Positions 4,387-47,617 of a stretch of DNA of 64,000 nucleotides are shown piece by piece. This DNA comes from Hymenobacter telluris (lineage in GTDB: Bacteria > Bacteroidota > Bacteroidia > Cytophagales > Hymenobacteraceae). Both the position numbers and the translations under genes were made by a program. Location of the stretch: contig NZ_JAFLQZ010000004.1 of assembly GCF_017313265.1 (NCBI RefSeq), positions 434,001 through 498,000 of the forward strand, in the 5' to 3' direction. The notes beneath the pieces are model-generated. The model saw only the letters and a list, made by a program, of their open reading frames with translations, was not told where the DNA came from and did no database searches. Within the stretch, counting starts at the first letter, position 1; every line of letters begins with the position of its first letter.

Positions 4387-4962
4387 ATGCCCAACGTCAT
4401 CAAAACCCGCAAGCCTGTTCTATTTGCTACGGCCGTGGCAGCCGTAGCCACTGGCTTAACTGCCTACGGTTATTTGCGCCGCAAACTGTACGCGCCGCTG
4501 GCTACAGTACCGTACGTAGACCTGCACAAGTACAGTGGCTTATGGTACGAGGTAGCCCGGTTGCCCGCTCGCTTCGAGAAAGGCTGCCAGCACGTTACCG
4601 CCGAGTACAAACTGCGTTCCGATGGTAAAGTGAGCGTGCTCAACACCTGCCATCAAGAAGGAATCAACGGGCCAGTTGAAACGGCTAAAGGTGTGGCCCG
4701 CGCCGTAGATGGCACTAATGCCAAACTGAAAGTCAGATTTTTCTGGCCTTTCGAGGGCGACTATTGGATACTGGACCTCGACTATTCCGACTACCGCTAC
4801 GCCTTGGTAGGCACCCCAAGCCGGGAAAACCTGTGGATACTAAGCCGCACCCCGCACCTAAAGCGGAATCTTCGTGACATGCTAGTAGGCAAAGCGCACG
4901 AGTTGGGCTTCCCGGTTGATAAACTGCTTTTCACTCCCCAGCCTGTAGTTGATAAGCCTTAA
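4387..4962 (+). CDS. Blc-type lipocalin
   Basis: 191 residues. Residues 10-32 form a hydrophobic, alanine-rich segment that fits an N-terminal membrane anchor or uncleaved signal; no lipobox cysteine is evident. The lipocalin signature GLWYEVARLP follows near residue 55, then the bacterial-lipocalin blocks KGCQHVTAEY and FFWPFEGDYWILDLD, and RTPHLKRNLRDML near the end. Blc-type lipocalins bind fatty acids or lysophospholipids and help maintain the envelope. The length fits the family. Confidence in the family is high; the ligand is unknown. Confidence 0.9.
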   Translation: MPNVIKTRKPVLFATAVAAVATGLTAYGYLRRKLYAPLATVPYVDLHKYSGLWYEVARLPARFEKGCQHVTAEYKLRSDGKVSVLNTCHQEGINGPVETAKGVARAVDGTNAKLKVRFFWPFEGDYWILDLDYSDYRYALVGTPSRENLWILSRTPHLKRNLRDMLVGKAHELGFPVDKLLFTPQPVVDKP

Positions 4963-4993
4963 GCTCTTTTGTATTTTCAGCTTTTTCCTGATT

Positions 4994-5040
4994 CCCAACA
5001 GCAGGCGGTAATAGCGCCTGTTGTTGGGTTTTTATTTTAT
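4994..5040 (+). terminator. Rho-independent terminator of the lipocalin gene
   Basis: The arms 4994-5007 and 5015-5028 (CCCAACAGCAGGCG, one G-T pair) enclose a 7-base loop and are followed by TTTTTATTTTAT. It lies 32 bases after the lipocalin stop codon. Confidence 0.9.
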
Positions 5041-5414
5041 CAATCAATACGATTTATTATAAAATTCCGTTTTTATTGCATTTTAAACTTCCATCAAACA
5101 AATAGCGTAGTTCATTTCAAGCTATTCAACTTATGTGTTTGCTGTTATGCGTGTTATCCAAGCCTCTGATTATACTTTTCTTGTACATATAATTATGAAA
5201 AGCTATTCTTAGATCAATTATAACAATTGCTTAGCGTCAGCACAATATGTAATTAAAACAGTATTTCAGGCTTTAAAATCCTTATTTTATTGCAGTTGCC
5301 AGAGAAACTATTAGCACGTATTTTTACGTGCAACGATATTTCCACTATTGCCTTTTACCTTGATTGCCTCTTGGGCAGCGTGTAGCTCCTTAATCAATCC
5401 TACACCCTTATGCC
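5041..5414 (+). other. AT-rich non-coding leader of the large T9SS protein gene
   Basis: About 370 bases, clearly richer in A and T than the flanking genes and without a convincing reading frame. It must hold the promoter of the 3.2-kb gene at 5415, but I could not identify a clean TTTG / TAnnTTTG pair. No repeat or RNA structure stands out. Confidence 0.5.
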
Positions 5415-8400
5415 ATGACTATACTCCTACTGAGCCAGATAAAGTCCTTTTTACACGGCCCCTTGGCAGCTTTCTGCTATTGCGGTGATGATGTACGCCC
5501 GTGGTACAAGAGACTTATTTTTCTGGCTTTGCTATGGAGCGGTTTATCGGGGTTGAGTGGTGTGGCGGTAGCGCAGTCCAACCGGTTTGTAACCCGTAAC
5601 GACTTCAACCAGGTACAGAAGAACACGGCTAAATCGGGCAACGTTATTCTCAACGACAGCAACCCCGATAACCTGCCTAATGCAGCCTTTATAGTTACGC
5701 TAGGTACCAGCCCGGTTAACGGGACACTCACCAGCATCAACCCCGACGGCAGCTACGTATATACGCCTAACCCAGGGTACCTAGGATCTGACAGCTTTAC
5801 CTACAGCATCTGCCAGCCGGGGGCCTTCCCAGCCTGTTCCAACACCTCAACTGTAACCCTCAACGTGTACGACCCCACCGTGGTATGCACGCTGGGAACC
5901 GGGCAGAACTTGTTGAACAACCCCAGCTTCACGCAGGGTAACACTGGCTTTTCCACCAGCTACGATTTTGTTGCCACTCCTAGCTCCGTCCCAAGCCTCT
6001 ACCAGGAAGGCACTTACGCCATAGGTACTAACTCCACTACTTACCACAATAATTTCATAGGTACCGGCCGCACCGGGCCCACCGACAAATTTATGATGGT
6101 GAACGGGGCAGCGCGCTTGGAGGGAGTGTATTCGCAAACGATAACCGTACTGCCTAACCGGTACTATTCGTTTTCGGCTTATGCGGCTAGCCTCAACAAC
6201 GGCATTCCGGCGCAGTTGGGCCTGGTAGTTGATGGCAAATCCACGTCGGTAGTAACCACGCTGCCCACCACGCCAGGGCAATACGTACAGTTTTCGGACC
6301 TGTACTTCTCGGGACCCGGCCCGGCCAGCGGCTTCCCCATAACCATTGAAATTCGGGACGTTAACAAGGTGGCCGTGGGCAACGACTTTGGTCTCGACGA
6401 TGTGTACTTCGGCTCGTGCAGCGCCTTCTTATTGGCCGATACCAAAACCACAACCCCCGTTCCCGACATAGCAGTACCGGCCGCCATTCTGCCGCTGAGT
6501 GCCACCATCAACGTGGGTGGTAGCGTGGGCGTGACGGTGGCTTCGTTCGTGGTGCAGAGCTTACCGGCCAGTGGTGTCCTGCGCTACAACGGGGTTCCGG
6601 TAACCGAAAATCAGGTGATTCCGGTGGCTAGCGTTGGCAGCCTCAGCAGCGGTGGTAGCCTCACCTACACCCCGGTAGGGGGCTGCACCGGCACCACCAC
6701 CACATTCACCTACACTGCTCTGGACAGTGACGGTACCGGCTCTGAAAATATTGCCACTTATACCATTCCGGTTACCCCCATTGCTACTCCTACCATCCGA
6801 ATGGCCGCTACCGGACCGGTTTGCCCTGGTACGCAGGTGCCATTGCGTGCGGGTTCCCGGCCAGGGTTTCTGTTTACGTGGTACAATGGTGCAACCATAG
6901 TGAACGGGGCCGGCTCTGTGCTCAATGATAGTGTGTTTGTGGCCTCTGCTGCCGGTACATATACTGTTAAAATTCAGTGGGCAAACTGCTCCACTACTTC
7001 CAATGGCGTTAATCTGACAGTTCTGCCTCCGCTTACGGCTGGCACTGTTGGAACCAACCAAACGGTTTGTGCCGACGTGGCACCGGCACTGCTTAGCAGC
7101 ACCGCAGGAGCTGGCGGTGGTACGGGCAACTATTCTTACCAGTGGGAGTCGTCGGGCAACAATACCACCTGGAGCGCTATTGCAGGCGCAACGGGCGCCG
7201 ACTATGCACCGGGAATCTTGGCCGCTACCACGTATTTCCGGCGGCAAGTAACGTCGGGCACTGGCTCCTGTGCTACTGCTTACGCCAACACGGTGGTTGT
7301 GAACGTACTCCCCGCCGTAACTCCGGGCAGCATCGGTGGCAATCAAACTATCTGTGCGGCCTCAGTTCCGGCGGCTTTCACCAGTACGGCTGGCGCTGGT
7401 GGAGGTACCGGCTCCTGCCTGTATCAGTGGGAATCATCGGTTGACAATATCACCTGGAACCCCATTGCTGGTGCAACGGCGGCCACCTACGCTCCGGGCC
7501 CACTCACCACTACCACGCATTTTCGGCGGCAAGCCACTTCCACTGCGGGCACTTGCCAAGCAGCTGTATCCAACCCCGTAATAGTGCGTGTGCAAGCGCC
7601 ACTGACGGTTGGCGTAGCCTTGGCGGCCCCCCCAGCCCAGTGCGCCGGCACGGCCCTCACCTTCACCCCCACCCTCACTAACGCGGGCTCAACCCCAACG
7701 TACTCCTGGTTTGTAAACAACGCGCCAGTAGCCAGCACCCCCACTTATACCAGCAGCACCCTGGCCAACGGCGACCAGGTGCGGGTGGAAATAACTCCAA
7801 CCGTTGGGTTTTGCGCCACCGGCACGGCTGCCGCTACGGCCACCGTTGTGCTTACCCCTTCTCTGCTTCCCACCCTCACCATCGAGAGCCAGCAGGAGAT
7901 GCCCGTGTGCCCCGGTACGTCGCTCACTTTCTTGGTTGCTCAGTCTATGAATACGGGGACGGCACCGCAGTACCAGTGGCAGGTAGATGGCGCTGACGTA
8001 GCCGGTGCTACGGGCGCAACCTTCACCAGCAGCACCCTGCGCGACGGTCAGCAGGTGACGTTGAAGCTACGCACTACCACCAATTGCAATCAGCCGGCCG
8101 CGGCAGCCTCTAACTCGGTGAAGGTGACTATCAGCCAATTGGCGAAAGTGAATGCCGGGCCGGACAAAGAAATCGAAGAAGGCCAGGAAGTGGTGCTGCA
8201 AGGCTCAATTGATGGCAATTACCCGGTAACCTGGAGCCCCGCCCAGGGCCTGACTTTCGTGAACGGCAACCGCCTCCAGCCTATTGCGGCGCCCACCACC
8301 ACCACCACATACACGCTGTCGGCGGGGCCTAGCGGCTGCCAAAATGTGAGCCAAGTGACCGTGAAAGTGAAGAAGCGCCCGCTCATCCGCATTCCTAACG

Positions 8401-8648
8401 CCTTCAGTCCCAACGGCGACGGCCAGGATGACACCTGGGAAATCGACCGGATTGGCGACTTCACCGGCAACGCCGTGACGGTGTTCAACCGCTGGGGCAA
8501 TCAGGTGTTCAAAACCACCAATTACAGCCGCACCAACGAGTGGAACGGCCAAATCAATGGGCAGCCGGCACCGCTGGGCACTTACTACTATGTCATTACG
8601 CTGGGCAAAGGCCAAACCTACAGCGGCTCACTTACAGTGGTTTACTAG
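5415..8648 (+). CDS. Large secreted adhesin-like protein with gliding-motility type C-terminal sorting domain
   Basis: 1077 residues. The first 55 contain a late hydrophobic stretch ending in VAVAQSN, a long but plausible signal region. Residues 60-150 form a cadherin-like/VCBS-type domain (NDSNPD, NPDGSYVYTPNPG, DSFTYSIC). Further Ig-like beta domains follow, including two tandem repeats of about 90 residues that share the blocks QWES, TTW or ITW, GAT and FRRQ (about 7040-7590 in the DNA). The last 90 residues match the gliding-motility-associated C-terminal domain: IPNAFSPNGDGQDD, FNRWGNQVF, LGTYYYVI. This domain directs type IX secretion (type B), so the protein is probably exported to the cell surface. 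The PorP/SprF gene 44 bases downstream is the usual partner of such cargo. The function of the repeats is inferred to be adhesion. Confidence 0.9.
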   Translation: MTILLLSQIKSFLHGPLAAFCYCGDDVRPWYKRLIFLALLWSGLSGLSGVAVAQSNRFVTRNDFNQVQKNTAKSGNVILNDSNPDNLPNAAFIVTLGTSPVNGTLTSINPDGSYVYTPNPGYLGSDSFTYSICQPGAFPACSNTSTVTLNVYDPTVVCTLGTGQNLLNNPSFTQGNTGFSTSYDFVATPSSVPSLYQEGTYAIGTNSTTYHNNFIGTGRTGPTDKFMMVNGAARLEGVYSQTITVLPNRYYSFSAYAASLNNGIPAQLGLVVDGKSTSVVTTLPTTPGQYVQFSDLYFSGPGPASGFPITIEIRDVNKVAVGNDFGLDDVYFGSCSAFLLADTKTTTPVPDIAVPAAILPLSATINVGGSVGVTVASFVVQSLPASGVLRYNGVPVTENQVIPVASVGSLSSGGSLTYTPVGGCTGTTTTFTYTALDSDGTGSENIATYTIPVTPIATPTIRMAATGPVCPGTQVPLRAGSRPGFLFTWYNGATIVNGAGSVLNDSVFVASAAGTYTVKIQWANCSTTSNGVNLTVLPPLTAGTVGTNQTVCADVAPALLSSTAGAGGGTGNYSYQWESSGNNTTWSAIAGATGADYAPGILAATTYFRRQVTSGTGSCATAYANTVVVNVLPAVTPGSIGGNQTICAASVPAAFTSTAGAGGGTGSCLYQWESSVDNITWNPIAGATAATYAPGPLTTTTHFRRQATSTAGTCQAAVSNPVIVRVQAPLTVGVALAAPPAQCAGTALTFTPTLTNAGSTPTYSWFVNNAPVASTPTYTSSTLANGDQVRVEITPTVGFCATGTAAATATVVLTPSLLPTLTIESQQEMPVCPGTSLTFLVAQSMNTGTAPQYQWQVDGADVAGATGATFTSSTLRDGQQVTLKLRTTTNCNQPAAAASNSVKVTISQLAKVNAGPDKEIEEGQEVVLQGSIDGNYPVTWSPAQGLTFVNGNRLQPIAAPTTTTTYTLSAGPSGCQNVSQVTVKVKKRPLIRIPNAFSPNGDGQDDTWEIDRIGDFTGNAVTVFNRWGNQVFKTTNYSRTNEWNGQINGQPAPLGTYYYVITLGKGQTYSGSLTVVY

Positions 8649-8692
8649 CTGAGCCACTTAGTTTTTTCTATTCGTTGGTAGCAGGGTTCTAT

Positions 8693-9664
8693 ATGAAAAG
8701 ATTTCTACAGCACTTGGTCTTTATTGGTATGCTGACCGGCTTTGCAGCCCGGCCCGCTCAAGCGCAGCAGCAGGCTCAATACAGCCAATACATGAACAAC
8801 AACTACATACTCAACCCCGCCGTGGCGGGTACCGAAGATGTAATTGATGTCAAACTTAGCTACCGTACCCAATGGACCGGGCTGGAAGGTGCCCCCAAGA
8901 CCTACTATGCCAGTGCCCACTCCTCGTTGGGCCGGCAGCAGAAATCCAAGCAGAATATGCACGGCTGGCGGCGGGGGTTTCACGCGCTGGGCACCATGCT
9001 CTACAACGACGTGACTGGGCCCACCAGCCGAGCTGGTATCTACGGCTCTTACGCCTACAACATTGCCTTAACCCGCACGCTGCGGGCCGCACTTGGCGTT
9101 TCGGCCGGCATGCAGCAATTCGCTATTGATGGGCAGCAGCTTCGATTTCATGACCCCAACAACCACCCCGGCAGCCAGGCTGCACGAGTGCCGGATGCCA
9201 CGGTGGGCTTGTGGGTGTATAGCCCCACTTTTTACGTGGGAGCCTCGGCCGCGCAACTGCTCGGTAACCAGTTGGATTTCTCGTATGCCCAAGTCAACCG
9301 TTTGGCCCCCGGCAACGCCCTAAAACGCCACTATTTCGTTACGGGTGGCCTGCGGGTGCCCCTAAGTTCCGATTGGGTACTGGTGCCTTCCGTTTTGGTG
9401 AAATCGGTACGCCCGGCGCCCATTTCTATCGACTTGAATGCCAAGCTGAAGTACCGCGACCTTATCTGGGCAGGTGGTTCGCTTCGCGCTTTCGATGCCG
9501 TAGTGGCGTTGGTAGGGCTCAACCTCAACGAGTACACTAGCCTGAGCTATTCCTATGATGCGGGCACTTCGAAGCTGGCGGGCTACCACTGGGGCAGCCA
9601 CGAAGTGCTGCTGGGGCTGCGGCTGAAGAAAACGCAAGTGGTCTGCCCACAACGGTTTTGGTAA
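8693..9664 (+). CDS. PorP/SprF family type IX secretion membrane protein
   Basis: 323 residues. The ATG at 8693 gives a signal peptide (MKRFLQHLVFIGMLTGF, cleavage near AQAQQ); the frame is open further upstream, but that part overlaps the preceding gene and lacks export features. The mature start, QYSQYMNNNYILNPAVAGT, is the hallmark of the PorP/SprF family, followed by alternating beta strands of an outer-membrane barrel. Family members usually sit next to a gene with a type B T9SS sorting domain and help anchor or export that cargo, which fits the large protein just upstream. The two genes probably share a transcript. Confidence 0.94.
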   Translation: MKRFLQHLVFIGMLTGFAARPAQAQQQAQYSQYMNNNYILNPAVAGTEDVIDVKLSYRTQWTGLEGAPKTYYASAHSSLGRQQKSKQNMHGWRRGFHALGTMLYNDVTGPTSRAGIYGSYAYNIALTRTLRAALGVSAGMQQFAIDGQQLRFHDPNNHPGSQAARVPDATVGLWVYSPTFYVGASAAQLLGNQLDFSYAQVNRLAPGNALKRHYFVTGGLRVPLSSDWVLVPSVLVKSVRPAPISIDLNAKLKYRDLIWAGGSLRAFDAVVALVGLNLNEYTSLSYSYDAGTSKLAGYHWGSHEVLLGLRLKKTQVVCPQRFW

Positions 9665-35306: not shown

Positions 35307-35315
35307 GGATTGGAG

Positions 35316-35397
35316 TGCGCGCGGGGAGATTCGAACTCCCACACCCGAAGGCACCACCCCCTCAAGATGGCGTGTCTACCAGTTTCACCACGTGCGC
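35316..35397 (-). tRNA. tRNA-Leu (anticodon GAG)
   Basis: 82 bases on the minus strand. The D arm (GTGGTGAAACTGGTAGACAC), anticodon arm CCATC-TTGAGGG-GGTGG with anticodon GAG, class II variable arm (GTGCCTTCGGGTGT) and T arm GGGAG-TTCGAAT-CTCCC are all present. Discriminator A is encoded; CCA is not. The acceptor stem GCGCACG/CGCGCGC has one A-C mismatch at the fifth pair. Confidence 0.94.
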
Positions 35398-40992: not shown

Positions 40993-42396
40993 TTACGCGC
41001 CGCCTTCCATGCGCACGATGCGCGGCGTGAACGAGCCCAGTACATCTACCAAGTCGGTTTGGCTGGCCATAACGGCCCGGATGTCTTTGTAGGCTTGCGG
41101 AGCTTCATCGAGGCCGCCGCCAATCAGCTCAACGGCGTGCTGCTTGAGGTAGCGCTTCACCTCGGCTTCGCCCAGTTCCTGCTTGGCCCGCGTCCGGGAC
41201 ATAGCCCGGCCCGCCCCGTGCGAAGCCGACGCCAACGAGGCCGCGTTGCCCCGGCCGCGCACGATGAAGCCGGGGGCCGTCATCGAGCCGGGGATGATGC
41301 CGAGCACTCCTTCGCCGGCCGGCGTAGCGCCCTTGCGGTGCACGATTACCTCACGGCCATCAGCCAGGCGCTCTTTCCAGGCGAAGTTGTGGTGGTTTTC
41401 CACTTTGGCTAAGGGCCGCTCGCCGAGGGCTTTGGCCAGGCGCTGATGAATCTGGTGGTGGCAGGCCGAAGCGTAGTCACCGGCCAGGTTCATAGCCGCC
41501 CAGTACTCCTGGCCCGCTTCGCTGTCCAGCGACAACCAGGCCAGGTGCTGGGCTTCCGAAGGCAGCTGGCACACGTCTTTGGCGAGCTTGGTGTAATGGT
41601 TGGCCACGCTGGCCCCCAGGCCTCGGGAGCCGGAGTGCGACAGAAGCCCCAGGTACTCCCCCACCGGCACGCCTAGCTCGTTGGCGGGGTCGGTGATGTT
41701 CACAATCCCCCACTCCACAAAGTGGTTACCGCCGCCCGAGGTGCCGATTTGTTCAGCTGCCGTGGCTTGCTTGTTGCGCAGGAACCCGATGTCCGTAAAC
41801 TCGGCACGGTCGAGTACGGCATGGTCGAGCTTCTGGCCGCGTTGGAAGCCTTGCTTGTTGCCGAAGCGGGTGTTGTCGAGGAGGAGCTTGCGCAGTTCCT
41901 GTACCCGCTGCTCCAGGTGCTTGGGCGGCAGGGTAAACACAGATAGCGCCATGCGGCAGCCAATGTCCCCCCCCACGGCGTAGGGAATTACGGCGTTATC
42001 GGTGGCCAGCACGCCCCCGATGGGCAGGCCGTAGCCGTGGTGGGCGTCGGGCATGAGGGCGCCGGCCACGGTTACGGGCAGCTTCATGGCCGTTTCCATC
42101 TGGTGGATGGCCCCGTGCTCGATGTATTCGGCCCCGAAGACGGCGTATTCTTTGCGCTCGGCAAGGGCAATATGGCGGCTGGGCGGGGGCAGCAATGCGG
42201 CGGCCGTGTGGCTCCAGTCGAGGTCGGTGAGGAAGTTGTTGGGAGTGGTCAGGAGGCGCTGCAACAGCGCCAGCTGGTCGGTTTGCGAGAGTTTTTTGAG
42301 GTGCTTGCGCTGCAATTGCGCCAGCGCCAGTCCAATGGCCCGGCCTTCCGGAAAGCCAAGCTGCCGAAGGTCGTTGCCGCGTAATAAATTGCCCAT
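40993..42396 (-). CDS. rtcB: RNA-splicing/repair ligase RtcB
   Basis: 467 residues from the ATG at 42396 (MGNLLRGNDLRQLG); earlier in-frame ATGs fall inside the RNA element next door and are rejected. RtcB signatures are complete: MPDAHHGYGLPIGG, GGDIGCRM with the metal cysteine, GTSGGGNHFVE, SHSGSRGLG, HHNFAWKE, and the guanylylated histidine in SHGAGRAMSR. RtcB joins 2',3'-cyclic phosphate or 3'-phosphate ends to 5'-OH ends using GTP and manganese, so it mends RNAs cut by nucleases or ribozymes. It is the last gene after the tandem Y RNA-like array, the order found in the Salmonella rsr-yrlBA-rtcBA operon. No archease or rtcA is present here. Confidence 0.97.
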   Translation of the reverse strand: MGNLLRGNDLRQLGFPEGRAIGLALAQLQRKHLKKLSQTDQLALLQRLLTTPNNFLTDLDWSHTAAALLPPPSRHIALAERKEYAVFGAEYIEHGAIHQMETAMKLPVTVAGALMPDAHHGYGLPIGGVLATDNAVIPYAVGGDIGCRMALSVFTLPPKHLEQRVQELRKLLLDNTRFGNKQGFQRGQKLDHAVLDRAEFTDIGFLRNKQATAAEQIGTSGGGNHFVEWGIVNITDPANELGVPVGEYLGLLSHSGSRGLGASVANHYTKLAKDVCQLPSEAQHLAWLSLDSEAGQEYWAAMNLAGDYASACHHQIHQRLAKALGERPLAKVENHHNFAWKERLADGREVIVHRKGATPAGEGVLGIIPGSMTAPGFIVRGRGNAASLASASHGAGRAMSRTRAKQELGEAEVKRYLKQHAVELIGGGLDEAPQAYKDIRAVMASQTDLVDVLGSFTPRIVRMEGGA

Positions 42397-42467
42397 ATAG
42401 AGGTTTCTTTTTTTGTTGTTCAATTTTCGATTGGGCTTTGCGTTCCAATCATTCTGTTTTCTTCTAA

Positions 42468-42553
42468 GCTCCGGAGCAACAGACAGCCCGCGCAACGGGC
42501 CCATGGGGCCGACGTGACAGATCGGAGTAGCGCGCACCTACGGCATCCGAAGC
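42468..42553 (-). ncRNA. Y RNA-like element 7 (shortest, no clear tRNA-like body)
   Basis: The outer stem GCTTCGG (42553-42547) pairs with CCGGAGC (42474-42468). The 5' side carries GATGCCGTAG and CTACTCCG, the 3' side CTGTTG before CTCC, as in the other elements. CGCGC/GCGCG makes the second stem. The enclosed part is only about 35 bases with a GGCCC/GGGCC hairpin and has no T-loop or D-arm motif. It ends 72 bases before the rtcB ATG and may be a degenerate copy or a leader structure for rtcB. Confidence 0.55.
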
Positions 42554-42555
42554 AA

Positions 42556-42644
42556 GGAAGAAGGATTTGGGGAGGGTGAAAAACGGTTAGCCGCTTTGGT
42601 TTTCAGACGAAGTAAGGCTACCCTACGACACCTCCCGTTCTTCC
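42556..42644 (-). ncRNA. Y RNA-like element 6 (tRNA-like body missing)
   Basis: The closing stem joins GGAAGAA with TTCTTCC and GGGAGG with CCTCCC, separated by a bulge. The 5' strand has GGTGTCGTAG and TTACTTCG exactly as in the tRNA-like elements, and GTAGCC/GGCTA forms the second stem. Between the second-stem strands only about 22 bases remain, so the whole tRNA-like body is absent. It keeps the presumed Ro60-binding part only. Confidence 0.62.
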
Positions 42645-42651
42645 ATATTAT

Positions 42652-42784
42652 TGACAGGGCAACAGGCCGCAAAGCCTTCTGTATATGTGCTCTAACCCCT
42701 GAGCTACTGCCTTTTGGCAGGTGGGATTCGAACCCACGACCCCATAGCCCCAAGCGAAGTAAGGCTTTGCTACGGCACCTGTCA
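42652..42784 (-). ncRNA. Y RNA-like element 5 with tRNA-like body
   Basis: The outer stem TGACAGG/CCTGTCA (42784-42778 with 42658-42652) and a perfect 10-bp second stem GCAAAGCCTT/AAGGCTTTGC (42770-42761 with 42678-42669) flank the internal loop GGTGCCGTA versus GGCCTGTTG. Inside, read on the minus strand, come TACTTCG, a T arm GTGGG-TTCGAAT-CCCAC, then CTGCC-AAAA-GGCAG, which closes the acceptor stem as a tetraloop hairpin, then a D arm TAGCTCAGGGGTTAGAGC. The 3' tRNA half therefore precedes the 5' half, as in YrlA-type Y RNAs. Confidence 0.86.
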
Positions 42785-42795
42785 GATACTGTTAA

Positions 42796-42942
42796 TAGCG
42801 GGGCAAAACCCAGCAGGCGGCTTTGTTTGATTGGTGCTTTCAGCCACTCAGCCACTCGTTGCAAGCAAAGAGGCAGGATTCGAACCTGCGGAGCCCGGTT
42901 GGGCTCGACAATTGAAGGAACGCCTACCTACGGCACCCGCTA
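42796..42942 (-). ncRNA. Y RNA-like element 4, mimic of a class II (Ser-type) tRNA
   Basis: The outer stem TAGCGGG/CCCGCTA and conserved GGTGCCGTAG mark the element; the TACTTCG motif is altered to TTCCTTCA. The body has a long variable arm GAGCCC-AACC-GGGCTC (42906-42891), T arm GCAGG-TTCGAAT-CCTGC, acceptor strands CTCTTTG and CAACGAG joined by CTTG, and a serine-type D arm TGGCTGAGTGGCTGAAAGC. The acceptor stem pairs at six of seven positions. This is a class II tRNA imitation in permuted order. Confidence 0.85.
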
Positions 42943-42960
42943 CGGTGACACGGTTTTCAG

Positions 42961-43114
42961 TGACTTTCAAACGGGGCAACAGGGCGCCAGCCACCATATC
43001 CTGCTCTACCAGCTGAGCTACAGCTGCCTTGGGGCAGCCGGTGGGACTCGAACCCACGACCTGGGCATTAAAGATGCGAAGTAAGGCTGGCTTACGGCAC
43101 CCGTTTGAAAGTCA
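42961..43114 (-). ncRNA. Y RNA-like element 3 with tRNA-like body
   Basis: The outer stem is 15 bp and perfect: TGACTTTCAAACGGG (43114-43100) with its complement (42975-42961). GGTGCCGTAA and TTACTTCG lie on the 5' side, GCCCTGTTG before CCCCG on the 3' side; GCCAGCC/GGCTGGC is the second stem. The body has T arm GTGGG-TTCGAGT-CCCAC, acceptor CGGCTGC/GCAGCTG joined by CCCAAG, and D arm TAGCTCAGCTGGTAGAGC. After the 3' acceptor strand the sequence reads C-CCA, so a CCA end is even encoded. Confidence 0.88.
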
Positions 43115-43124
43115 ACGAGAAAAG

Positions 43125-43254
43125 CCTGCTGGGGCGACGGGCAATGAATACTTTGCTCTACCAGTGAGCTACAGGCCCATTAGAATTGAAAGTGTGGGCC
43201 TGATAAGAATCGAACTTATTACCGAAGTACGTCTCATTTACGGCACCCAGCAGG
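43125..43254 (-). ncRNA. Y RNA-like element 2 with tRNA-like body
   Basis: The outer stem CCTGCTGGG/CCCAGCAGG (43254-43246 with 43133-43125) encloses GGTGCCGTAA and GTACTTCG. The body shows T arm ATAAG-TTCGATT-CTTAT (43219-43203), a perfect 7-bp acceptor CAGGCCC/GGGCCTG joined by 17 bases, D arm TAGCTCACTGGTAGAGC and a possible anticodon-like stem AAGTA/TACTT that overlaps the conserved TACTTCG string. The permuted order is the same as in the other elements. Confidence 0.86.
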
Positions 43255-43263
43255 GTGGTTTCG

Positions 43264-43430
43264 CAGCTGGGTCCACCAACTTCGGGGCAACAGGCGGCTG
43301 GCGTATGTTTCAACCCAATGCCGTAGCAGGGGCGCAGGATTCGAACCCGAGGTACTCTATTTGGAATACAGCACCTAAACTAACCACGAAGTAACGCCCG
43401 CCTACGACACCCGAAGTGGTGGCTCAGCTG
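43264..43430 (-). ncRNA. Y RNA-like element 1, class II-like body without D arm
   Basis: First element of the array. The outer stem combines CAGCTG, CCACCA and CTTCGGG with their complements in 43264-43290. GGTGTCGTAG and TTACTTCG are on the 5' side, GCCTGTTG before CCCCG on the 3' side. The body has an 11-bp hairpin (43351-43375) in the position of a long variable arm, a T arm with TTCGAAT, and an acceptor-like stem closed by TGC-TACG-GCA; no D arm can be drawn. It is the most divergent of the five tRNA-like bodies. Confidence 0.8.
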
Positions 43431-43588: not shown

Positions 43589-44434
43589 TTACAAGGCTAT
43601 TCGTGGCGCCGCTGTTAATGCCTTTTCAAATGCGCTGAGCGTTTTATGAGGCGGCTTTGGGTCGAATATGGCGAAATCGATTCGCCGGAAACGGCCGCGG
43701 CTACCAGGTTCTGCTAGTGCCTCGGCAAACAGGTTGGCTATCTGCTGCGGGTCGTTTTGGAATACGCCGCAGCCCCAGGCCCCCAGTACCAGCACGTCGC
43801 ACTTGTGGGTGGCCGCTATAGCCAGCACTTGCCGGATGCGCCGCTGCATGGTGGGTACCAGTTCGGGCAGCAGCTCGGGGTTGTTCCGATTCAGGGCTCC
43901 GGCATTAACGGCTGGCGAGGTGACGAAATCTACCAGCACTGGCTGAGGCAGCCAATTGCCAGCATCGTCGCGGAAAACGGGCACGCCCGGCGAATAGATG
44001 GCATAGTCGCTGTAGAGGCCGGTGCGGGCAGTGCGCGTGTTGTGGCTGTACATTTCCTGAAACTGCACCAAGCACGGATACAGCCCCGAGGAACGCGCCA
44101 GGCTTTCTTCCTGCGCCTGACTGCCACTCAAAAACCCACCCCCTGGGTTGCGGGCCGAAGCAAAGTTCAGGCAGCCTACTCGCTCAAACTCCGCGGCAAG
44201 CTTGGTTACGGCTTCCAATGTAGTAGCCTGGTACACCCGGATTTCGGCGGGTGGGCCGGCGGGCGTTTCAGGTACCTGAAGCAGTTGCGGCACGTCGGCG
44301 GGCCGGTACAGCACACTGCCTTGTTCGGCCGCTTGTTGCAGGGCGGTTAGCGCTTGGTGGGCGCCGGCCGAGTTGCTGTAGCTGCCTTGCTGCAGCGCAG
44401 CCAGCGTTTCGCGGGCTATCTGTTGGCGGTTCAT
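43589..44434 (-). CDS. Bacterial-type poly(ADP-ribose) glycohydrolase (TIGR02452 family)
   Basis: 281 residues from the ATG at 44434 (MNRQQIARETLAALQQG); the frame is open upstream but unlike the family there. The macro-domain catalytic loop NPGGGFLSGSQAQEE is at residues 97-110, with the acidic pair that cleaves the ribose-ribose bond. TGLYSDYAIYSPGVPVFRD and LVLGAWGCGVFQNDP complete the signature. Such enzymes remove ADP-ribose chains from proteins and possibly from nucleic-acid ends. It lies between the Ro60 gene and the RNA array in the same direction, which suggests a role in RNA repair or in controlling modified RNA ends; this is inference. Confidence 0.93.
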   Translation of the reverse strand: MNRQQIARETLAALQQGSYSNSAGAHQALTALQQAAEQGSVLYRPADVPQLLQVPETPAGPPAEIRVYQATTLEAVTKLAAEFERVGCLNFASARNPGGGFLSGSQAQEESLARSSGLYPCLVQFQEMYSHNTRTARTGLYSDYAIYSPGVPVFRDDAGNWLPQPVLVDFVTSPAVNAGALNRNNPELLPELVPTMQRRIRQVLAIAATHKCDVLVLGAWGCGVFQNDPQQIANLFAEALAEPGSRGRFRRIDFAIFDPKPPHKTLSAFEKALTAAPRIAL

Positions 44435-44463
44435 GACAGAGGAAGTGAAATTTCGGGCAGTAA

Positions 44464-44509
44464 CCCGGGAGTGGCGGCAGCTTGTACTGGGTCGGATGCC
44501 ACTCCCGGG
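44464..44509. repeat. Inverted repeat between the Ro60 and PARG genes
   Basis: CCCGGGAGTGGC (44464-44475) and GCCACTCCCGGG (44498-44509) form a 12-bp perfect stem with a 22-base loop. A second, AT-rich 10-bp pair (AAGTAGTTGG, 44537-44546 and 44599-44608) lies closer to the Ro60 stop. They may attenuate transcription between the two genes. Confidence 0.65.
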
Positions 44510-44620
44510 GCCGCATGAGGTTAAGTAGTAGGTGATAAGTAGTTGGATAAAGGACAAACAACCTATTCTTATAAAATCAGACAGTTCACATCCTATTCCC
44601 AACTACTTACTACTGAGTGC

Positions 44621-46147
44621 TTAAAAGGTGATGGACTCGATTTCCGTGAGGGCGGAGCCGCCGTTGTCGAGGGCTTCCAGCACGCTGAAAATCTTGTCGG
44701 ACCAACCGGCAATCAGGGCCACACCGTCTGCGGCGCGTACGTCGAGCGGGGCGGTGCCGTGGCCGGCGAGGTCGAAGAGGTACAGGCGGGCCTGGGGCGC
44801 CACCGTGCGGCGGTACTCCGCCCACTCGCGGGCCACGGTGGTGCCGTTGAGGTGGGTGTTCCAGAGCTGGCAGTCGGTGAAAATCATCACCTTATCCACC
44901 ACTTCCCGGCGCCGCCGCAAATCCTCGATAACGAGGTAGCCGTTGGTGCTGTAGCCCACTTCCCCTTCGCGGCGGTAGAACTCGTCTACGTTGCCGAGTA
45001 CGGGGCCGCGGGGCAAGCTGATACGCTTCCAAATGTTGCCAAACATACCAGCCGTGACGTGCTGGCAGCGGCTTTGCAGCAACATCCCCAGCACCAAACC
45101 CACGTCGTAGAGCTGCACTTTGCTGCGCGCCGATACCGGCTGCTGCATCGAGCCCGACACGTCGCAGGCCACTACCACGCGGGTTTCGGGGCCGAAGCCG
45201 CGCAGGTTGGCGGCACTGTGCGCAATGGCATCTTCCAAAGCTGCCAGCACCGCCGACACGTGGCCGTTCTGCAAGGCTTTCACCTCACGGTAAGCGGCCA
45301 GGTAGCGGAACGGCAACTGCTTGCTGCGCGCCACCGCCGTACGGTCGGCCAACGTAGCGCACACCTCCACCACGGCCTCCGCCGATACCCCGGCTTCGAG
45401 GATGTTGCGCAGGTTGCGCAGCAAGGCCATGTAGCCAACCTTGCCGCTGGCAATCAGCGTTTCCCACTTCTCCCGGAAAGCCGCCGCGCGCTCCGCTGGT
45501 GTAGCATAGGCAGTTTGTCCGAGCGCCGACAACTCGGTTTCCCAGGTGTAAGGCGTGGGCAAGGTACCGGCCGCTAATTGGTCGAAGAGCACTTGCTGGG
45601 ACTCGTTGCGGGGCGTGGGGTGCACCAGGAACAAAGCGTCGCGCAGACGCACGGCCCCGGCCCGGTCGTACTTGGCCAGCTGGTAGCCGTCGAAACGGTT
45701 GAAGCTGATGGCCAGGCCTTTTTGGAGCTGCTTGGAGAGGCGGTTGAGGGTTTTCACCCCGGTCCGCTGGTTCACCTGGGCGTAGCAGGCCAGCAGCTCC
45801 GTAATTTCGTCGGGCCGCTGCACAATGCGGGCCACCAGGCGGCTCACCAGGTTGTCGCCGCGGTGCAGGCGGGCCAGCTCCACGGCCAGTACCAGGGGCA
45901 CCGAGCGCAAGTGCATCTGCTCCCGTGCGTACACGGCTAGCTGGGCCACAAACGTGGGGTCGTTGCGGGCCACCAATTCGCGCAGGCGAGTCAGGCGGGT
46001 GTCGGCTTGCTCGTAGAACTGGTCGCTGAGGGAGGCCGTAGCCACGGCGGCGTACAGCTCCAACGGAGGCGTGAGCGTGAAGGCAGCGGCGCCTTCGTGG
46101 TTCACGGTGTCGGGCTGGGTTTTGCGGAAAGTAAAGTTGAAGCGCAT
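44621..46147 (-). CDS. rsr: Ro60/Rsr orthologue (TROVE plus vWA domain)
   Basis: 508 residues from the ATG at 46147 (MRFNFTFRKTQPDTVNHEGA). Residues 10-310 are the HEAT-like TROVE ring: NHEGAAAFTLTPPLELYAAVATASL, LAVYAREQMHLRSVPLVLAVELA and VGYMALLRNLRNILEAG are typical. The C-terminal vWA domain has its MIDAS loop DVSGS at residues 329-333. Ro60 rings bind misfolded RNAs in the central hole and Y RNAs on the outer surface; in bacteria Rsr works with Y RNA and exonucleases in RNA quality control. The Y RNA-like array 1.2 kb downstream is the obvious ligand source. Confidence 0.96.
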   Translation of the reverse strand: MRFNFTFRKTQPDTVNHEGAAAFTLTPPLELYAAVATASLSDQFYEQADTRLTRLRELVARNDPTFVAQLAVYAREQMHLRSVPLVLAVELARLHRGDNLVSRLVARIVQRPDEITELLACYAQVNQRTGVKTLNRLSKQLQKGLAISFNRFDGYQLAKYDRAGAVRLRDALFLVHPTPRNESQQVLFDQLAAGTLPTPYTWETELSALGQTAYATPAERAAAFREKWETLIASGKVGYMALLRNLRNILEAGVSAEAVVEVCATLADRTAVARSKQLPFRYLAAYREVKALQNGHVSAVLAALEDAIAHSAANLRGFGPETRVVVACDVSGSMQQPVSARSKVQLYDVGLVLGMLLQSRCQHVTAGMFGNIWKRISLPRGPVLGNVDEFYRREGEVGYSTNGYLVIEDLRRRREVVDKVMIFTDCQLWNTHLNGTTVAREWAEYRRTVAPQARLYLFDLAGHGTAPLDVRAADGVALIAGWSDKIFSVLEALDNGGSALTEIESITF

Positions 46148-46303
46148 GATATGAATTGCTGTATTGTTGAATTGTTGGTTGTTAGCGCAGAAGCTACAGG
46201 ACACGTGTTCTGCGACGAGTAAAGTGTGTTTCTACTCTACGCGTTGGCGCATACGGTACAGTGCCTACTACTCGCTCCGCTCGTCGCGGAATGGACTTCC
46301 GCG

Positions 46304-47617
46304 CTACGCTTCACACCAGCCAAGCAAGTGCTTGGGAATCAGCAGGCAGTTATCGGCGGCCCAGCGCTGTATCCAGGCGCTTTCCTCGTCGTTGGGGCGG
46401 CGGTTGAACAGCCCGCGGGCCTGTACGATGGTGCGGTTGGCCTGCACTTCCAGCGTCACGGTGCGGGTATCATTGAGGGTTAGCGAAAAGATGGCGCTAC
46501 GCCCCCGCCGGCAGGAGTCGAGGTAAGAAGCCACGCAGTGCCGCAGGGTGCGGCCCTCATCGAGCAGGTCGCCGTAGGTGCGCAATTGGGTGATGCGCAC
46601 CGAGCACTTGCCGCCGCCAGAAAAGTCTGGTATCGGCATTGGCTCCCAAGTGGAACCGAGCGTCAGGCTGGCTTCCGGCGTCCGATGCGAAGCTTGGGTT
46701 AGCTGGCGGTGCCACTGCGCCGTTTGCGTCAGTACACCATTCATCGAGCGGCCCTTCAGCGAGAAGCCCGGCTGGGCCGGTTCGCCATTCACGCCCACCG
46801 TGCGCTTCTGGTGAATCCAGTCGCACACGGGCCCAAGCTGGTAGGGGTCAACCATGGGGGCGGCGGCAAAGAAGTCCACCACCCGCAGCCAGAACTCGTC
46901 GTCGCGCCCCAGATACCGGCTCAGGCGAGAGTCGAGCACCGGGCCTAGCCAGGCTAGCTGGTCGCGGGCGGCGAGCTGGGCATAGCGCAATGCGTACAGA
47001 AACGGATAGCCAGCCGGAGCTAGGCGCAGGTGGTGCTCCACCTTGCGGCTAAGCGGCCCTGGCAGCCCCCGAAAGGTGCGCAGTGCCCCACCCCGCCCCA
47101 AATGCACGGTTAGTTCGGCAATGTTGAGGCCATCGTGCAGGCGACCAGCCGTCCAGGAGTTGATTACCCAGGCCGGTACGTCGCCATACTGGTCGAAAAG
47201 GTGGCGCACCAGGCTTTCCAGCTGCCGGAAGGGATTGCGGCTGCGGGGTTGCCAGTCGGCTAGCTCCCGGCAACGCTGGGGCAGCCACCGGGCCACCACC
47301 GCCAAGGCCGAAGCCACTTCAGGGCGCCAGAGTAGCTCGGTGCGCTTGGTGGCCAAGCTACGCAACAGCCTGGCGCACTGGTTGCGGTGCGCCGCTTGCT
47401 GCTCATGGATGCAGTGCTCGTAAAACTGCGCCAGCGCCGAATTCTCGCCTAACTGGGCTTGGATGACGGGCAGCGGACCGTAGAGCGAAAACAGATAATC
47501 TACTTGGCGAGAAAGCGGCCAGCGGCGCCAGTCGAGGCGCTTGGCCGCGGAAAGTACTATGCGCGCTTGCTGGGCTTGCCAGACGGCGTGGGGTAAGGGT
47601 TTGAGGCGGTTGGACAT
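46304..47617 (-). CDS. PcfJ-like protein
   Basis: 437 residues, no signal peptide. The C-terminal third carries LDEGRTLRHCVASYLDSCRRGRSAIFSLTLN, followed by TVTLEVQANRTIVQARGLFNRRPNDEE, the pattern of the PcfJ-like family first named from enterococcal conjugative plasmids. The N-terminal 280 residues are helical and tryptophan-rich (LDWRRWPLSRQVDYLFSLYG) and I recognise nothing there. The molecular function is unknown. It is the first gene of a same-strand series with Ro60, PARG, the Y RNA-like array and RtcB, so an RNA-related role is likely. Confidence 0.8.
   Translation of the reverse strand: MSNRLKPLPHAVWQAQQARIVLSAAKRLDWRRWPLSRQVDYLFSLYGPLPVIQAQLGENSALAQFYEHCIHEQQAAHRNQCARLLRSLATKRTELLWRPEVASALAVVARWLPQRCRELADWQPRSRNPFRQLESLVRHLFDQYGDVPAWVINSWTAGRLHDGLNIAELTVHLGRGGALRTFRGLPGPLSRKVEHHLRLAPAGYPFLYALRYAQLAARDQLAWLGPVLDSRLSRYLGRDDEFWLRVVDFFAAAPMVDPYQLGPVCDWIHQKRTVGVNGEPAQPGFSLKGRSMNGVLTQTAQWHRQLTQASHRTPEASLTLGSTWEPMPIPDFSGGGKCSVRITQLRTYGDLLDEGRTLRHCVASYLDSCRRGRSAIFSLTLNDTRTVTLEVQANRTIVQARGLFNRRPNDEESAWIQRWAADNCLLIPKHLLGWCEA

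Follow-up and report, generated by a model that had tools for sequence, protein, structure and literature searches.

The closest described relatives of the element considered here are the bacterial Y RNAs of the YrlA type (Rfam RF02553), in which a long stem of paired ends carries T, acceptor and D arms in permuted order, and which have Ro60/Rsr and RtcB as neighbours. We analysed a stretch of 64,000 nucleotides (nt) from Hymenobacter telluris (assembly GCF_017313265.1, contig NZ_JAFLQZ010000004.1, positions 434,001 to 498,000; hereafter the window), in which seven YrlA-type units stand in tandem on the minus strand, from 43421 to 42464, between a PARG-type gene and rtcB. The units share with YrlA all of the above traits, but differ in being seven in tandem, in scoring below the Rfam cut-off, in including class II isotype-like modules and in comprising two units without a tRNA-like body. 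In Salmonella, Ro60, Y RNAs and RtcB are likewise reported in one cluster, rsr-yrlBA-rtcBA (PMC7790460); however, that operon has yrlB and yrlA, whereas the window has seven units, a PARG gene and a PcfJ-like gene. The RYPER of Deinococcus (Rsr, Y RNA and PNPase) also combines Ro60 with a Y RNA bearing a tRNA-like module, but the modules of the window are tandem and isotype-diverse. Permuted tRNA genes of algae and archaea also place the 3' half before the 5' half and connect the two acceptor strands by a loop; unlike them, the standard modules of the array have no anticodon and their ends are held by the Y RNA stem.

Structure of the array

The predicted structure, tandem Y RNA units with permuted tRNA modules, is well supported. 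Seven copies of the motif GRTGYCGTAR lie on the minus strand of the window, each at the start of a unit with its own closing stem. The covariance model R1, built from an alignment (A3) of 30 class I units of relatives and the window, found exactly seven units, with expectation values (E) from 5.7e-40 to 3.1e-9, its next match being at E 0.32; this bears out an earlier note on this DNA, which had claimed seven tandem minus-strand units. The window contributed units 2 and 3 to the training of R1, with units 1, 4, 5, 6 and 7 outside it. Successive matches are 17, 10, 16, 1, 4 and 6 bases apart. The units are as follows.

43275..43421, minus strand: Y RNA unit 1 (R1 50.2 bits, E 1.5e-13; motif GGTGTCGTAG; fold)
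43122..43257, minus strand: Y RNA unit 2, permuted class I tRNA body, acceptor CAGGCCC/GGGCCTG (R1 85.2 bits, in the training set; Rfam YrlA 44.3 bits)
42964..43111, minus strand: Y RNA unit 3, permuted class I tRNA body, acceptor CGGCTGC/GCAGCTG, closing stem with 18/19 pairs (R1 136.7 bits, in the training set; YrlA 37.6 bits)
42791..42947, minus strand: Y RNA unit 4, permuted class II Ser-like body (R1 54.0 bits, outside the training set; alignment A2)
42647..42789, minus strand: Y RNA unit 5, permuted class I tRNA body, 5-base-pair acceptor CTGCC/GGCAG (R1 106.3 bits, outside the training set; YrlA 35.0 bits)
42564..42642, minus strand: Y RNA unit 6, short, without a tRNA-like body (R1 36.1 bits, E 3.1e-9)
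42464..42557, minus strand: Y RNA unit 7, short, without a tRNA-like body, adjoining rtcB (R1 42.2 bits, E 4.1e-11)

The closing stems of units 1 to 7 have 8/8, 9/9, 18/19, 8/8, 7/7, 11/13 and 8/8 pairs as counted by script, where for unit 5 the strand CCTGTTG was used (CCTGTCA of the R1 alignment pairs equally well with TGACAGG) and for unit 6 the inner strand (the folded closing stem is GGGAGG...CCTCCC). Their sequences differ among units, they span 7-19 positions, and helix 1, the paired unit ends, covaries with 97.2% of cells paired, as the claim of a closing stem different in every unit and backed by covariation had it. A clear permuted body (T arm, 3' acceptor strand, loop, 5' acceptor strand, D arm) is present in units 2, 3, 4 and 5, that is, in four units and not in the five claimed earlier, unit 1 being partial: its T arm follows a long hairpin and has no matching 5' acceptor and D arm. 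In the permuted bodies, the unit's closing Y RNA stem stands in place of the anticodon loop. The acceptors of units 2-5 pair within their own unit (7/7, 7/7, 6/7 and 5/6) and with those of other units at 0-5 positions, which agrees with the earlier statement that they pair only within the unit. ARAGORN called no tRNA gene inside the array, where the canonical arm order with an anticodon is absent.

Common to the units is a strongly conserved element, 5' GGTGCCGTA and usually 3' TTGTTGCC, a putative Ro60/Rsr-binding part of the stem. The 5' motif occurs on every window unit, even on units 6 and 7, which have no tRNA-like body. Such a distribution would suit a gate, in which Y RNA stems cover the RNA-binding surface of Ro60 and the modules are bulky plugs without specific partners. 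The modules, however, display strong pairing constraint and isotype features, and we regard a mere gate as quite improbable. Between the PARG gene and unit 1, at 43482-43428 on the minus strand, there is also a strong hairpin, GGAACGGC...GCCGTTCC, containing GGCAACAGG, the reverse complement of CCTGTTGCC; it might represent a short unit in inverted orientation, or else a terminator.

The pairing within units was assessed on bodies from 100 Ro60 neighbourhoods of the family and the window, picked by D-arm sequence with an upstream T-loop pattern and blind to the acceptor. In 229 bodies, which have 135 distinct 5' acceptor strands, the body's own acceptor pairs at a mean of 6.37 of 7 positions and perfectly in 65.5%, as against 3.10 of 7 with the T arm of the next unit (n=162) and 3.79 with shuffled partners. 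Canonical tRNAs spanning unit borders, made of a D arm and the next T arm, were rejected on this comparison (3.10/7 against 6.37/7). A separate strict parser, applied to relatives and window, recognised 258 permuted bodies in sense orientation as against 3 in reverse; conservation of the T loop and of the D-loop GG cannot be used as evidence, since the parser demands both. In alignment A3, 96.8% of cells are paired; shuffles reach 76.4%, and sliding the partners by one to three columns leaves 38.6-50.4%. Compensatory changes in relatives, which the earlier note had named as a check, are abundant in the same alignment: double-sided changes number 218 versus 66 in shuffles, and the observed values were reached by 0 of 500 shuffles.

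These data also bear on the idea that the array consists of decayed or permuted tRNA genes, or is the remnant of a tRNA cluster, without any Y RNA function. Tandem tRNA genes would likewise give the order T arm, spacer, D arm, R1 has weak matches on tRNA genes, and one unit of H. norwichensis scores as a tRNA in Rfam. However, the acceptors pair inside the unit and not with the neighbour as in tandem tRNA genes, the standard modules have no anticodon arm and the closing stems covary, which leaves this idea hardly any credibility.

The Rfam YrlA model, also named beforehand as a check, did match three units of the window (44.3, 37.6 and 35.0 bits, E 5e-8 to 2.5e-5), but all of them fall under the 69-bit gathering cut-off of RF02553, as do a Deinococcus gobiensis unit (49.6 bits) and a Streptomyces phage unit (43 bits). 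The units are classed as YrlA-type and not as RF02553 members; the cut-off is a database threshold and not a biological feature. A YrlA family search at E<=10 gave matches in 13 of 14 control genomes too, above the cut-off in 0 of 14. When the whole window was scanned with Rfam at gathering scores, no entries were returned, a weak negative because the same scan missed a tRNA-Leu at 35315-35397; ARAGORN and a tRNA family search of the genome identify this gene as tRNA-Leu(gag). With R1, the array is the only significant site in the whole home genome, and the next two matches, at E 2.4e-4 and E 4.5e-4, span adjacent tRNA genes.

Modules resembling different kinds of tRNA

The earlier note was right in calling the array sequence-diversified, yet this was an understatement, as the modules form classes that resemble tRNA isotypes, class II included. 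When 214 filtered bodies were sorted by D arm, 148 were class I, 18 Leu-like, 17 Ser-like and 31 other. All 18 Leu-like D arms are nearest to a host tRNA-Leu and 10 are identical to it. Of the 17 Ser-like D arms, 16 have tRNA-Ser as their closest match, 2-5 edits away, and the remaining one has Thr. Among the other D arms, three are one edit from tRNA-Gln and many of the rest fit no isotype. Outside the family, two Leu-like D arms are one edit from tRNA-Leu(taa), and the D arm of locus L251 is one edit from a host tRNA-Met gene, which we take to be the initiator. Gln-like, initiator-Met-like and Arg-like modules are the rarer kinds found in relatives.

Class II character extends beyond the D arm. 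For units picked by D arm, we looked under a strict rule for a hairpin of at least 4 base pairs (bp) adjoining the T stem, which is the position of the class II variable arm. It is present in 14 of 24 Leu-like and 11 of 22 Ser-like units, and in none of 180 class I or three Gln-like units; for Leu-like and Ser-like units together (25/46 versus 0/180), the Fisher p value is 6e-21 with the relatedness of rows ignored. The strict rule replaced a looser first test, with which 72 of 148 class I bodies had scored positive. In the window, unit 4 has a 6-bp hairpin, GAGCCC(AACC)GGGCTC, next to its T stem, and its D arm, TGGCTGAGTGGCTGAAAGC, is 3 edits from host tRNA-Ser(gct). In alignment A2, of unit 4 with 13 relatives, 24 of 37 pairs have double-sided changes. 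The variable arm itself rests mainly on single sequences, because RNAalifold missed it in A2, where the columns are gappy, and recovered only two of its pairs in alignment A1. Judged by these features, the modules of relatives imitate different tRNA kinds, namely generic class I, Ser-like and Leu-like class II, and rarer others.

What is imitated is the body and not acceptor identity, because acceptors are no nearer to host tRNA acceptors (4.71 of 7) than column-shuffled strands are (4.86). Modules as copies of particular host tRNAs were accordingly rejected for acceptors (4.71 versus 4.86); the D arms do support such copying.

The main rival to the role that we favour below has to be judged on these data. 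As in Deinococcus RYPER, the modules might be adaptors or tethers linking Ro60 to PNPase or another RNase for the decay of structured or damaged RNA, in which case any L-shape would work and the isotype variety would be drift. RYPER is the bacterial Y RNA mechanism that is reported to have direct support (PMC8394870, PMC7790460). Yet tethering with drift leaves unexplained both the association of Leu/Ser-type D arms with a variable-arm hairpin (25/46 versus 0/180) and the D arms identical to host tRNA-Leu (10/18), and we consider it somewhat unlikely.

A separate observation concerns the anticodon arm. The 17-nt anticodon arm of host tRNA-Asn(GTT) occurs whole in 10 of 101 arrays (L097, L101, L103, L105, L107, L116, L127, L135, L151 and L156), and with one change in L120. 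Matches to other isotypes are 13 nt or shorter, and to reversed arms 11 nt or shorter. In 8 of the 10 arrays the arm lies 36-37 bases past a unit motif, no motif having been found nearby in L135 and L156. It is formed in the predicted fold of some units only.

Neighbours, distribution and exchange

The genes around the array agree with the earlier placement of YrlA-type Y RNAs between Ro60/PARG and RtcB, as judged by the Pfam domains TROVE, vWA_Ro60, PARG_cat_microb and RtcB.

46304..47617, minus strand: PcfJ-like protein, upstream of Ro60 (Pfam PcfJ 1.1e-13)
44621..46204, minus strand: Ro60/Rsr (TROVE and vWA), likely start 46147 (Pfam TROVE 1e-29, vWA_Ro60 3e-6)
43589..44602, minus strand: microbial PARG/macrodomain protein (Pfam PARG_cat_microb 3.3e-47)
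40993..42396, minus strand: RtcB RNA ligase (Pfam RtcB 7.4e-84 on the longer open reading frame 40993-42537)

Ro60 matches were obtained in 106 of 204 genomes of the family, and fragments of Ro60 in G101, G024, G054, G130, G167 and G038 were left out of the locus sample. The strict motif accompanies Ro60 in 100 of 101 loci and is absent only around a second Ro60 paralogue; the relaxed motif is present in 3 to 8 copies per array in 98 of 101 (0, 2 and 10 copies in the others). Within the fetched stretch, the 101 loci have RtcB downstream in 88, PARG in 34 and PcfJ in 47. In eight loci (L118, L133, L135, L151, L152, L156, L159 and L162) a PcfJ-like gene is placed between the Ro60-side units and RtcB, and in seven of these eight one or two motifs lie beyond it, adjoining rtcB. 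R1 gave 582 matches at E<=0.01 in 100 fetched loci. It follows Ro60 in Hymenobacter: by our own count among the genomes listed, in which those without a match figure only in part, 37 genomes with Ro60 have a best R1 match at E 1.4e-29 or lower, and 9 without Ro60 have one at 6e-7 or weaker, or none.

Beyond the family, we counted 42 genomes with an R1 match at E<=1e-15 among those listed from the 390 searched in the order. Across the phylum, a match at E<=1e-12 occurs in 25 of 395 genomes, of which four, the window genome among them, belong to Hymenobacter. The order tally of 290/390 at E<=0.001 was not used, because at that level R1 also matches tRNA genes, as in the home genome. The parser found no body in 5 of 40 other-family loci despite an R1 match. 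Named carriers include H. norwichensis DSM 15439 (8 matches, L283), Chitinophaga filiformis DSM 527 (5) and Pontibacter mangrovi (4); Flavobacterium soyae has a single match and hence no array. At L283 8424-8492, a Y RNA unit of H. norwichensis scores above the Rfam tRNA cut-off (32.8 bits), an annotation pitfall. D. gobiensis has one R1 unit beside Ro60 (E 1.3e-27), which the YrlA model also matches.

Phages carry such units as well. RNA repair in jumbo phages is reported to include TROVE proteins with a tRNA-like partner; the passage concerned (PMC7824862) names no arrays, whereas of eight viral Ro60 loci scanned here with R1, four (L362, L363, L366 and L370) have between two and four units next to the Ro60 gene. 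R1 gave no convincing unit beside Ro60 in L364, L365 (crAss-like cr111), L367 and L368. In Brevundimonas phage Bambus (L366, 2263-2916), three tandem units lie upstream of the phage Ro60 gene, and by eye one of them has a Gln-like D arm and another a Leu-like D arm with a variable arm. Streptomyces phage Quantum has two R1 units beside Ro60, one of them weak (E 2e-4), and L363 has two beside Ro60 and a third further away. In L362, an IMG/VR contig of 183,648 bp, the region 4529-9417 holds Ro60 and four Y RNA units with 18 tRNA matches around and a 19th inside a unit.

The neighbourhood of rtcB raises the possibility that the array is a cis-acting leader that senses the state of tRNA and controls rtcB. 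RtcB is indeed downstream in 88 of the 101 loci; on the other side, 13 have no downstream RtcB match in the fetched stretch (some stretches stop at a contig end), and the two named phages with units beside Ro60 have no rtcB annotated within 3 kb, which makes such a leader very improbable.

The modules are also exchanged between close relatives. In the window's clade of five (support of 99 in the Shimodaira-Hasegawa-like approximate likelihood ratio test, SH-aLRT), the window and G060 have a Ser-like module and G128, G111 and G126 a Leu-like one, even though G060 (Ser-like) and G126 (Leu-like) are sisters. In the alignment of the clade the body is replaced and the 5' Ro60-side element is kept. 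The downstream spacer and the start of the next unit are common to G060, G128, G111 and G126 but not to the window, and the upstream neighbour differs in G111; units are therefore also added to arrays and lost from them. In a quickly built tree of 99 Ro60 sequences, from which the frame-broken L167 was dropped before the final version, Leu-like presence (24 rows) requires at least 22 changes, compared with 19-24 in the ten shuffles listed, and Ser-like presence (21 rows) 16 changes, compared with 18-20, counts that missed diverged modules would inflate. Phylogenetic signal is thus not visible for Leu-like presence and is little for Ser-like presence. In L248, two bodies of one array (6029-6192 and 6500-6663) differ by one base over the printed stretch, which suggests recent tandem duplication as a route of array growth.

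Exchange also bears on a further explanation. The modules might be a docking site or sponge for tRNA-modifying or tRNA-processing enzymes, which would be brought near Ro60-bound damaged tRNA. Some modification enzymes tell tRNA classes apart, which counts in its favour. So does the report that YrlA is a substrate of DusA and TruB (PMC8394870). Alone, however, it leaves the exchange of Leu-like and Ser-like modules among close relatives unexplained, and we rate it as unlikely.

Possible role and meaning

We tentatively favour, at somewhat less than even confidence, the reading that the units are Ro60-bound tRNA decoys or docking modules for enzymes that recognise the tRNA body, in a setting of tRNA damage and repair. 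The units would be co-transcribed and then cut apart, each binding one Ro60 and presenting a tRNA elbow without an anticodon and without a free acceptor end. Such modules could not be charged or cut at the anticodon, because they have no anticodon and their acceptor ends are joined by a loop. Their foremost targets would be nucleases that attack tRNA during toxin or phage conflict. RtcB would meanwhile religate the real tRNAs that have been cleaved, and turnover of attackers would account for the exchange of modules. It is tempting to go further and see in the arrays an exchangeable repertoire of isotype decoys (Ser, Leu, Gln, initiator Met and others) that shield specific tRNAs of bacteria from cleavage, with phages carrying them to the same end or to the opposite one; this narrower version is conceivable but more doubtful. 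The Salmonella rsr-yrlBA-rtcBA operon is reported to respond to tRNA damage, and competitive inhibition of a nuclease is one possibility named for it (PMC7790460).

Several observations weigh against decoying or docking. Under the strict rule, 21 of 46 Leu/Ser-like and all three Gln-like units have no hairpin next to the T stem. Nor can decoying be what every unit does, given that a tRNA-like body is missing from units 6 and 7 and is odd in unit 1. Some phylogenetic signal remains for Ser-like modules because 16 changes compare with 18-20 in shuffles. The exchange counts depend on D-arm patterns to which diverged forms are lost; the tree behind them was a quick one, and its rows share descent. 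Finally, fragments of Salmonella YrlA are reported as undetected after DNA damage (PMC7790460), a result compatible with a non-substrate and with an unrelated RNA alike. Sequence cannot separate decoying or docking from a PNPase tether.

As far as the searched literature goes, the new points are the tandem arrays, the class II and isotype-like modules and their exchange, priority not being established: in the literature on bacterial Y RNAs no title or abstract opening names such an array (key reviews and the 2014 survey lay outside this coverage), and Hymenobacter together with Y RNA gave no literature match. To our knowledge, class II mimicry with a variable arm is found in no described Y RNA. 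Units of this kind are easily overlooked, being under the Rfam cut-off, or, in one case, misread as tRNA. For the role of bacterial Y RNAs in RNA-repair operons, the Salmonella operon paper offers possibilities only (PMC7790460). A shared stem element combined with exchanged modules of different tRNA kinds makes this role testable, the question being which enzyme sees each module. The arrays would then be natural examples of isotype-specific tRNA mimicry, class II with its variable arm included.

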